DNA from: Alphaproteobacteria bacterium HGW-Alphaproteobacteria-14
Lineage (GTDB): Bacteria > Pseudomonadota > Alphaproteobacteria > Sphingomonadales > Sphingomonadaceae
Assembly: GCA_002842925.1 (NCBI GenBank)
Contig: PHEL01000018.1
Coordinates: 1-52,697 of the forward strand
DNA length: 52,697 nt
Reading direction: 5' to 3'
The notes beneath the pieces were generated by a model, which worked only from the letters and a program-made list of their open reading frames with translations, was not told where the DNA came from and ran no database searches. Positions within the stretch are counted from its first letter, which is position 1; each line of letters opens with the position of its first letter. A program made the position numbers and the translations under genes. Of this stretch, positions 3,611 through 10,993 are shown one piece after another.

Positions 3611-4389
3611 CAGGTGCGGCTTCCCCCAAGGCCCTCTAACGCGGCGAGCCGTTCAGCCTGTTCACGCGGCACCGCGACAAGGCCCTGGGCGATTGCACCG
3701 CCAGCCCCTGCCAGCAGCGCGCGCGGGGTTTCATCCGCCACCAGCCGTCCGCCGTCCATCACCAGCACCCGGTCAGCCAGCAGCAGCGCTTCGGCCATGT
3801 CGTGCGTCACCATCACCGTGGTGAGGTCGAGCCGTTCATGCAACTCGCGCACCTTGGCGCCCAGCGCGTCGCGGGTGACCGGATCGAGCGCGCCAAAGGG
3901 TTCGTCCATCAGCAGCAGTTCCGGCCCGCCCGCCAGCGCCCGCGCCACGCCGACCCGCTGACGCTGACCGCCGGAAAGTTCATCGGGCATCCGGCTCGCC
4001 ATCGCCGGTTCGAGTTCGACCAGCGCCAGCAGCTGCGCGATTCGCTCGGGCGGCAGCTTTTCGCCAGCCAGCCTTGGCCCGATGGCGATGTTTTCGCCAA
4101 CCGGGAAATGCGGGAACAGGCCCACCCCCTGAAACACATAGCCGACCCGGCGGCGCAGGCGCGCAGGGTTGAGCGCGCTTACATCCTCGCCGCCGAACAG
4201 CACCCGGCCTTCACTCGGCGCTACCAGCGTGTTGACCGTTTTGAGCAGCGTCGACTTGCCCGATCCCGATGCGCCGACCAGCGCCACGAAACTCCCCGCC
4301 GCAATGTCGCAGGTAACGCCGCCGACCGCGGTGATTGCCCCAAAGCGGCAGATCACCCTGTCGAACTGGAGAATGGGTGCGGCGGTCAT
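3610..4389 (-). CDS. ABC transporter ATP-binding protein, osmoprotectant type
   Basis: Walker A GASGSGKST, Q-loop VFQ, LSGGQRQRV, Walker B LLLMDEPFGALD; overlaps the downstream permease by one base. Confidence 0.92.
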   Translation of the reverse strand: MTAAPILQFDRVICRFGAITAVGGVTCDIAAGSFVALVGASGSGKSTLLKTVNTLVAPSEGRVLFGGEDVSALNPARLRRRVGYVFQGVGLFPHFPVGENIAIGPRLAGEKLPPERIAQLLALVELEPAMASRMPDELSGGQRQRVGVARALAGGPELLLMDEPFGALDPVTRDALGAKVRELHERLDLTTVMVTHDMAEALLLADRVLVMDGGRLVADETPRALLAGAGGAIAQGLVAVPREQAERLAALEGLGGSRT

Positions 4390-7998: not shown

Positions 7999-8585
7999 TG
8001 GGAGAACAGATGCAAATCGAAGAGGAGCGGGGCACGGTGCACAACAATGCCGCTGGTTTGGCAAAAGTGAAAAATCTGTTTTTGCTTTTCCTGCTTGTGG
8101 CGGTTCTTGCAACTGCCATTTGGCTTTTCCGTGGGTCTGTGGGCTGGCCAGTCGCTAGTGCGCTTGAAGACGAAAATGGAGCAAAAATTTCAGTTTATCG
8201 AAACGATTTCATAAGCACATCAGAAATTGTTTTCGATATCGTGGACGTCGATTATGCAGAATCTCCTTTAGGGATGACAAGGAAACTCTTGAAAGCTGCG
8301 GATGCATTGAAGGAGCACAACTTCGAGAGGGTCTTCCTCGCTCATCGTGGAGAAAAAAAGTTCTACCTAGATGGATATTATTTCCAAAGGCTCGGCAGAG
8401 AGCGTTCCTGGCAGAACCCGATCTATACCATCCGCACACTCCCAGAAAACGTCATGAGGCTCGATGGAAGCCCAGCCTATGGCTCGTGGACCGGTGGCTG
8501 GATTGGTGTAATGGGGCGGCAATTGGAAGATGCTAATCAGTTCCACCGAGATTGGTGGTTGTCTGATGAGATCTCAGGTTCGTGA
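7995..8585 (+). CDS. Hypothetical single-pass membrane protein
   Basis: One N-terminal hydrophobic segment ([19 protein letters not shown]); start overlaps the upstream stop; visibly lower GC than its neighbours. Confidence 0.65.
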
Positions 8586-8663
8586 TTCCTTAGCTAACCC
8601 CACGCGCCCCCTTGCGTAACTCCCCCGATTACGGGCACATACGCTTGGGGGAGGGATTACACT

Positions 8664-9415: not shown

Positions 9416-10057
9416 ATGGCTCTCAACCCCACCCTACGCGACCAAGAGCGTGAGCGGATTGCGCGCCATGTGCTCGATCTGGTGAAAGAGCGCGGATCAG
9501 AGATTCCGTGGACCATCGCTATGGCCGAAAGCGGGCTGACCCGCGCGCGGTTCGAAGCCCTGTTCGCCGATTATGACGATCTGTTCGATGCGATCGCGCA
9601 GACCTGGCTCGCCCCGCATATGGCGGTGATGGAGGAGGTGCTGGCAAGCAATCTCCCGCCGCCGCGCAAGATGTTCGAATTCTTCCGCAGCCGCTTCATC
9701 ATCTCGCAAAGCCGGTTCCGCGAAGACCCGGAGCATTTCACTATTCTGTGCGAAATGGGCGCTGCCAATTTCGAGCGGGTGCGTTCCTACGTTGATCTCG
9801 CCGATCACTATACCTGCGAGTTGATCGCCGAAGCGCAGGCCGAAGGGTTCTTTGCGGGGCTGGAGATTGATGAGGCGCTGTCGCTGATCAATCAGATGAT
9901 GTCCAACTACACCCTGCCCGATGCGCTGATCTATCTTGGCGACAAGCTGACCGAGCAAAAGCTGGCGCGGATCGTCGATACGATGTTCATTGGTCTATCG
10001 GGTGAGGCCGGGGCGGATGCTTCGGGGGTCAACACGCTGAAAGTAGCGTCGTTCTGA
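9416..10057 (+). CDS. TetR/AcrR-family transcriptional regulator
   Basis: N-terminal HTH-like ARHVLDLVKERGSEIPWTIAMAESGLTRARFEALFADYDDLFDA with helical C-terminus. Confidence 0.75.
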   Translation: MALNPTLRDQERERIARHVLDLVKERGSEIPWTIAMAESGLTRARFEALFADYDDLFDAIAQTWLAPHMAVMEEVLASNLPPPRKMFEFFRSRFIISQSRFREDPEHFTILCEMGAANFERVRSYVDLADHYTCELIAEAQAEGFFAGLEIDEALSLINQMMSNYTLPDALIYLGDKLTEQKLARIVDTMFIGLSGEAGADASGVNTLKVASF

Positions 10058-10066
10058 AAATGCCTC

Positions 10067-10198
10067 ATGCCAGCGCGCTGAGATGCTTGCGCATATTACC
10101 AAAGTTCGATGAGCCCCGCCTCATCGCGCTTTGGTCAGGCCCGTGCGGCGCAGACGCATTCCAGCGCGTGATGCGTCAGCATCTTAGCGCGCTGGCAT
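10067..10198. repeat. Large imperfect inverted repeat with two nested internal hairpins
   Basis: Arms atgccagcgcgctgagatgct (10067-10087) and agcatcttagcgcgctggcat (10178-10198) pair at 20/21; internal accaaag..cgatgag/ctcatcg..ctttggt (10098-10135) and gacgcat/atgcgtc (10153-10177). Confidence 0.85.
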
Positions 10199-10216
10199 AA
10201 CGCGCCGGGTATCGCG

Positions 10217-10993
10217 CTAATCCCGGCGGAATTGCAGCACATTGGCGGGCAGTTTGCGCGGCGGTGGGCGCAGACGCTGTTCGGCGAGCGCATATTTGAG
10301 CGCCGCGCCCACCATCAGCGCCGATATCAGCAGGATCGCCGCCGCCCAGAACCAGTGAGGCAGGCCCATTTCCGCGGCGATTTGCCCGGTGTCTGACAGT
10401 ATCGATTGCCCCTCGATCACTGCCCGTTCGGTGAACAGGTAATGGAAATCGCGCAGCATGCTCATCGCGCCCAGCACACCGAGGAATTGCAAGGTAAAGC
10501 GCACGAACCCGGACGATGCGCGCCATGCAACCAGCACCAACACCCCCGCCACCAGCGGCAGCATCGTATAGCCGACTGGCGACCGCACCCAGATCGCTAC
10601 GCTCGTCACAATCGCCGTCGCCGATAGCCACAGCACGGGTCGCCACAGCCGTGGATGCGCGCTGGCGATTATCAGCAGGGCACCGACCGCGCTCGGTGCC
10701 AATGGCCCGCCTGCCGCAATCGCGGCGAGCGTGAAGCGCGAGGCATCAGCCGCGACCTGGCTCTGCGCGACGCCCGAACCACTGGCAAAGATCATCAATT
10801 GCTGAAATTGCTGCCCCAGTGCCAGCGCGGTCAGCCCGTGACCCATTTCGTGAAACCAGGTGGTCAGGATGGCGAAGGGATAAATCAGATAGGTGCCAAA
10901 TGGCAGCGCAGGCAGCATCACCACGACCAGCCCGGCCAGCACCAGCCGACCGACCGCTTCGCCCTGACTGCCGGGGGTAACAAGCGATCGCAT
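10217..10993 (-). CDS. M50-family metallopeptidase-like membrane protein
   Basis: HEMGHGLTALALG (HExxH) within a multi-TM protein. Confidence 0.82.
   Translation of the reverse strand: MRSLVTPGSQGEAVGRLVLAGLVVVMLPALPFGTYLIYPFAILTTWFHEMGHGLTALALGQQFQQLMIFASGSGVAQSQVAADASRFTLAAIAAGGPLAPSAVGALLIIASAHPRLWRPVLWLSATAIVTSVAIWVRSPVGYTMLPLVAGVLVLVAWRASSGFVRFTLQFLGVLGAMSMLRDFHYLFTERAVIEGQSILSDTGQIAAEMGLPHWFWAAAILLISALMVGAALKYALAEQRLRPPPRKLPANVLQFRRD

Follow-up and report, generated by a model that had tools for sequence, protein, structure and literature searches.

The feature between a TetR-type gene and a convergent M50B gene consists, with a probability of about 0.82, of two members, most simply one nested in the other, of a single family of palindromic, MITE-like, non-autonomous mobile elements, for which transposition and landing on stop codons are proposed. 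The window referred to throughout is the whole stretch of 52,697 nucleotides. The element is real, mobile and composed of two hairpins, and in kind it is an ordinary bacterial MITE, being short, non-coding and multicopy with a target site duplication and terminal inverted repeats. Small palindromic repeats are common in bacterial genomes. What is unusual lies in the unit itself, namely its stop-codon landing, its hairpin-bearing ends and a linker that is conserved across orders.

The genetic context agreed with the original prediction, as the TetR-type gene ends with its stop codon at 10055-10057 and the Peptidase_M50B gene occupies 10217-10993 on the minus strand. Complementary arms at 10062-10094 and 10171-10203 (33 nt, 85%) contained the continuous 21-bp core with one G-U pair that had been described, and a hairpin (10098-10113 paired with 10120-10135) was nested within them. 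The minimum free energy of the top strand was -84.7 kcal/mol, compared with a mean of -60.75 for shuffled sequences (z = -6.1; 0 of 200 shuffles folded as well), and the bottom strand gave a z of -6.4. The nested hairpin was thus as predicted, but the single three-way-junction element proposed around it turned out to be two family copies. This junction is specific to the double copy of the window and was rejected as a conserved fold, because other copies are without the outer 5' arm; the conserved structure over 76 copies is two separate hairpins plus a linker. Two copies of a single palindrome in opposite orientation pair with each other to give the 21-bp outer stem. The parts of the feature are as follows.

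10064-10066, no strand: TCA, target triplet on the left side of the outer (older) solo hairpin; its partner TCG at 10212-10214 differs by one base
10067-10093, minus strand: left part of an older solo hairpin-2 element, inverted; rejoined with 10198-10211, 30/35 to the hairpin-2 consensus
10094-10096, no strand: left target triplet TAT of the inner unit, probably a mutated TAA
10097-10197, plus strand: complete mobile unit (hairpin 1, linker, hairpin 2), bounded by the tips TACCA...TGGCA; R1 covariance-model match at 10094-10200 including triplets, 109.8 bits, E 1e-22
10098-10135, plus strand: hairpin 1, 16-bp stem, arms 10098-10113 and 10120-10135; 12 of 16 pairs covary across copies
10136-10160, plus strand: linker, window version CAGGCCCGTGCGGCGCAGACGCATT, consensus TTAAGCCCGTGCGGCGCTTGAGCATT; conserved in Erythrobacter, Pannonibacter and G249
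10161-10195, plus strand: hairpin 2, CCAGCGCGTGATGC-GTCA-GCATCTTAGCGCGCTGG; compensatory changes between orders
10198-10200, no strand: right target triplet TAA of the inner unit
10201-10211, minus strand: remaining right-hand segment of the older solo hairpin-2 copy (CGCGCCGGGTA); ACGCGCCGG departs from the expected continuation at 1 position
10212-10214, no strand: TCG, target triplet on the right side of the outer solo hairpin

The inner unit is 101 bp long and flanked by TAT and TAA. Excision of this unit together with one triplet leaves a contiguous 35 nt, which is the 30/35 match to the inverted hairpin-2 consensus and is itself flanked by TCA and TCG. Both triplet pairs are imperfect, and the right remnant ACGCGCCGG taken alone (1 mismatch in 9) finds an equally good match at 31 of the 52,697 window positions. 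Judged from the sequence, the feature is most simply read as an older solo hairpin (10067-10093 plus 10201-10211) that received an insertion of the 101-bp unit from its own family, and the double copy is probably nested. Most relatives carry a SnoaL_4 gene in the interval from TetR to M50B. This gene is absent at the window locus (10058-10216; relatives L198-L226), where the element occupies its usual place, and no match to it was found elsewhere in the own genome. The empty site that the original prediction had called for was therefore not clean at this locus, because the relatives carry the SnoaL_4 gene there. Since the gene was not found in the own genome, a competing origin for this site only is its deletion via two flanking copies, in which recombination or deletion between two separate copies on either side of the lost gene, and not a nested insertion, would have produced the structure. 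A copy in E. sanguineus located between the SnoaL_4 gene and M50B (L205) is in favour of such an origin, whereas the outer hairpin is resumed beyond the right end of the inner unit with 1 mismatch in 9, as a nested insertion predicts. We consider the deletion origin unlikely.

The element is not single copy, as 15 other places in the own genome contain part or all of the window sequence (E below 1e-6). Among 60 relatives, strong copies were found in G010, G022, G030, G034 and G036 only, and named records assign the family to Erythrobacter, with E. sanguineus, E. cryptus and E. donghaensis among the carriers. The consensus from 13 aligned copies reads TNA - TACCA - hairpin 1 - TTAAGCCCGTGCGGCGCTTGAGCATT - hairpin 2 - TGGTA - TNA. 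The full unit comprises about 101 bp with a conserved linker of about 25 nt, and its terminal inverted repeats are short (TACCA...TGGTA, about 5 bp, followed by partly similar arms). A covariance model of the unit found it in 19 of the 114 Erythrobacter-group genomes, at 1 to 29 matches per genome, some of which are one place read on both strands, and 76 full-length copies were aligned. The unit was also present in Pannonibacter, a member of another order, on the 351-kb plasmid of P. phragmitetus 31801 and on a related plasmid of strain BB (86% identity). Much smaller derivatives were observed as well: a 16-bp palindrome, TGCCAGCGCGCTGGTA, between TTA and TCA (L184:744-759), and an element of about 37 bp that consists of one arm from each hairpin and has TTA on one side and TAA on the other (L188:2958-2994).

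The stems covary across the family. In the alignment of 76 copies fitted to the covariance model, 95.3% of the pair cells were standard pairs, 13 pairs were changed on both sides compared with a shuffled mean of 5.1, and the covariation score was 0.152 versus 0.069 for shuffles. A MAFFT alignment of the Erythrobacter and Pannonibacter copies agreed with the model-fitted alignment, with a score of 0.290 versus 0.124. Between the two orders, hairpin 2 showed compensatory changes at two pairs (GC to AU and CG to GC), and the linker and the GATGCGTCAGCATC core of hairpin 2 were nearly invariant. The folded form thus seems to matter, either as DNA in transposition or as RNA. The outcome that the original prediction had named as speaking against the element, a single copy with no covariation, was not what was found. 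Its alternative of a structured RNA gains some support from the covarying stems and the conserved linker, but not in the form of a three-way junction.

Evidence for mobility came from the triplets at the ends of the copies. The terminal triplets were identical in 37 of the 76 copies (permuted mean 16.5, maximum 30), and the identical pairs included TTA/TTA, TCA/TCA and TGA/TGA. TNA was present at both ends in 41 copies, 37 of them with identical triplets (permuted mean 18.8, maximum 28, 5000 permutations); about half of the 76 copies had no identical triplets, with mutated ends or decay. Hairpin-1-less copies and solo hairpins were still flanked by TNA-type triplet duplications, and therefore the tips alone seem to define the mobile unit. 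In Pannonibacter, the site beside a YDG-domain gene contains TTA-unit-TTA in strain 31801 and TCA in strain BB (106 versus 3 bp), and the flanks of the two strains are 94% and 87% identical. Here the strains differ cleanly in the presence or absence of the unit, and the 3-bp duplication is the one expected; the site provides the empty-site comparison that the window locus did not. A second Pannonibacter site also differed by 106 versus 3 bp, and only one of the two absence sites is clean because the junction bases of the second have changed. The BB plasmid p.BB_1 additionally carries an annotated Mu-like prophage (L292-L293, about 95-132 kb), and the corresponding region of the 31801 plasmid has no such annotation.

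The copies coincided with stop codons far more often than expected. Of the 76 copies, 39 had an end triplet that was exactly the stop codon of an adjacent gene, the genes in Erythrobacter being called with our own codon-usage caller. Restricted to the 65 copies with genes called on both sides, the coincidence was 35/65 versus 16.5% of all intergenic-plus-stop TNA sites (p = 6e-12), an approximately threefold enrichment in which the background included some element-bearing regions and the copy counts are not fully independent, because a few copies are orthologous between species. The excess was found in both triplet classes when such regions were excluded or masked, with 23/40 versus 18% for TAA/TTA and 12/16 versus 29% for TGA/TCA. 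In Pannonibacter, tested in the same manner with the public RefSeq annotation, 7 of 14 copies were located on stop codons versus 21% expected (p = 0.016). The end next to the stop was hairpin 1 in 31 cases and hairpin 2 in 9. Divergent intergenic regions held only 2 of the 65 copies, compared with 32 of 173 background regions, and copies were also found between co-directional genes. The window copy itself is not on a stop codon. Besides targeting, selection could contribute to the enrichment.

These features can be arranged into a possible mechanism. A transposase supplied in trans would recognise the hairpin-bearing ends, cut TNA targets with a 3-nt stagger and insert the element. Where the target is a TAA or TGA stop, the stop would be duplicated on insertion and therefore kept, making the insertion nearly harmless. 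At stops the unit would be read mostly with hairpin 1 first, in sense, as a hairpin-linker-hairpin 3' untranslated region, and it may affect mRNA ends. In the window, an older solo hairpin-2 copy would have contained the TNA into which the 101-bp unit inserted, and the inverted palindromes would now form the long outer stem. Scans for the hairpin-1 and hairpin-2 end patterns in six genomes, with single-end matches inspected, revealed neither an autonomous element nor a transposase that shares the ends of the unit, and a scan for pairs of TNA tips in the fetched loci and the Pannonibacter plasmid yielded no convincing autonomous partner. IS5/IS1031 elements have a TNA target and were considered as the driver for this reason. 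An IS5-type driver was rejected, as TACCA tips are missing from the PF13340 loci and neither G010 nor G112 has a PF13340 match.

The most serious rival holds that the unit is a functional 3'-UTR RNA module under selection, acting as an mRNA stabiliser or a protein-binding hairpin-linker-hairpin, with mobility as its historical origin only and the stop position resulting from selection instead of targeting. The covarying stems, the conservation of the linker and hairpin-2 core across orders, the sense-orientation bias of 31 to 9 at stops and the apparently orthologous copies in different species (L112/L126/L127 and L167/L168/L115) are all in line with it. However, the distribution is patchy (19/114 genomes), there is absence at the strain level, some copies are strongly decayed, and selection gives no reason for a distance of exactly 0 nt from the stop over, say, 10 nt. 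A module maintained solely by selection is therefore rather improbable, though less so than the deletion origin considered above for the window. The orthologous groups just named have decayed ends (CCG/AAG, GGT/AAG) and look like long-retained insertions.

Spread as REP/BIME-type repeats, by RAYT or another Y1 transposase via single-stranded hairpin intermediates, would account for the short paired palindromes and dimers, the solo hairpins, the covarying stems and the intergenic location, and a Y1_Tnp gene exists in G000 (at a contig edge) and in G036. In contrast to REP, the unit has a 3-bp target duplication and TACCA/TGGTA tips and shows neither a GTAG nor a CGTC end tag as defined in PMC3733652, and the carriers G010, G022, G030 and G034 have no Y1_Tnp (PF01797) match. 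This reading is very doubtful. The earlier label of 'MITE/REP-like' holds in the MITE sense (multicopy, intergenic, with target duplications and a strain-level empty site). An intrinsic bidirectional terminator between convergent genes, suggested by the strong hairpins there, can hardly be entertained: no T tract follows the hairpin, and the element is multicopy, mobile and also found between co-directional genes. As a primary explanation the terminator was refuted, in keeping with the original view that the structure is more than a simple terminator. No relevant Rfam family was found at gathering or relaxed thresholds. The mobile element with stop-codon landing thus remains the preferred reading.

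Judged by architecture and size from their descriptions, the closest known kinds are CIR and Bru-RS. The CcrM-associated intergenic repeats of Caulobacter (CIR; Chen and Shapiro 2003) are described as intergenic elements of about 110 bp with two hairpin arms, a linker and GANTC at the loop (PMC2229807, PMC10969869). They resemble the unit in size, in two long hairpin arms with a linker, and in being intergenic and alphaproteobacterial. For GANTC the agreement is only partial: a subset of the copies, and hairpin-1 relatives of other families, have it at or near the terminal loop. It occurred in 30 of 68 copies, against 22.7 for shuffled sequences, and 26 of these 30 have it at one and the same position in the hairpin-1 loop. 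Unlike CIR, the window copy has no GANTC, and the unit has a TNA duplication with stop-codon preference, whereas the target duplication of CIR is listed as unknown; on the mobility of CIR, the review states that more information is needed (PMC2229807), and for alphaproteobacterial types such as CIR the review literature regards the mechanism as still to be determined. Bru-RS1 and Bru-RS2 of Brucella are palindromic, dispersed elements of 103-105 bp (PMC2267715, PMC2266754), comparable by description in size, palindromic nature, dispersal, intergenic location and alphaproteobacterial host. They differ in being reported as hot spots for IS711 insertion with a YTAR target, and no TNA duplication features in the descriptions taken from these two papers. 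IS630-type MITEs (Correia/NEMIS, ERIC, RUP; 100-160 bp) share short length, non-coding nature, terminal inverted repeats, target duplication and a mostly intergenic location (PMC2229807), but have TA termini, whereas the unit has a 3-bp TNA duplication, its own hairpin at each end and a conserved linker. RepRanger reports thousands of generic palindromes in E. cryptus without naming such a family (PMC12306157), and no description of the element family was found in the literature on sphingomonad MITEs and stop-codon MITEs. A link to the CIR-type repeat class appears likely.

Weak and mostly multiple covariance-model matches were obtained in ten other alphaproteobacterial genomes, and they were of two sorts. 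In G249, from another family, 52 copies of the linker were enclosed by hairpins that differ in sequence, and the triplets at the flanks included TGA/TGA. The second sort comprised TACCAAG-NNN-CGATGAG-loop-CTCATCG-NNN-CTTGG hairpins, often with GACTC at the loop. Of 385 genomes of the class, 11 contained the TACCAAG...CTTGG hairpin pattern and none the reversed-pattern control. We tentatively suggest, at somewhat less than even odds, a class-wide superfamily of stop-codon-targeted two-hairpin mobile elements, which would include those of Erythrobacter, Pannonibacter and the G249 lineage and probably CIR and Bru-RS, and whose TNA duplication would regenerate the stop to leave a harmless sense-strand 3'-UTR module. 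If true, it would answer how CIR-type repeats move.

The 3-bp duplication, the strain-level empty site and the approximately threefold stop enrichment make mobility and targeting directly testable, and the conserved linker with the covarying stems offers a handle for seeking a transposase or binding protein. The family also suggests how a genome parasite may occupy the narrow spaces of a densely packed genome almost free of cost and provide RNA structure at 3' ends as it does so.

Two viral contigs, L257 (near 8579-8609, minus strand) and L258 (near 4115-4145), contained the usual linker and hairpin 2 together with unrelated self-complementary hairpin-1 arms (CCAAAAT...ATTTTGG). No driver was identified on these contigs, and their elements adjoin a TAG that looks like a stop codon. 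Furthermore, L268 and L269 (G398 and G147, around position 1505, reverse strand), from other alphaproteobacterial families, carried the linker variant TTAAGCCCGCGCGGCGTTTGAGCG between two inverted repeats of unrelated sequence.
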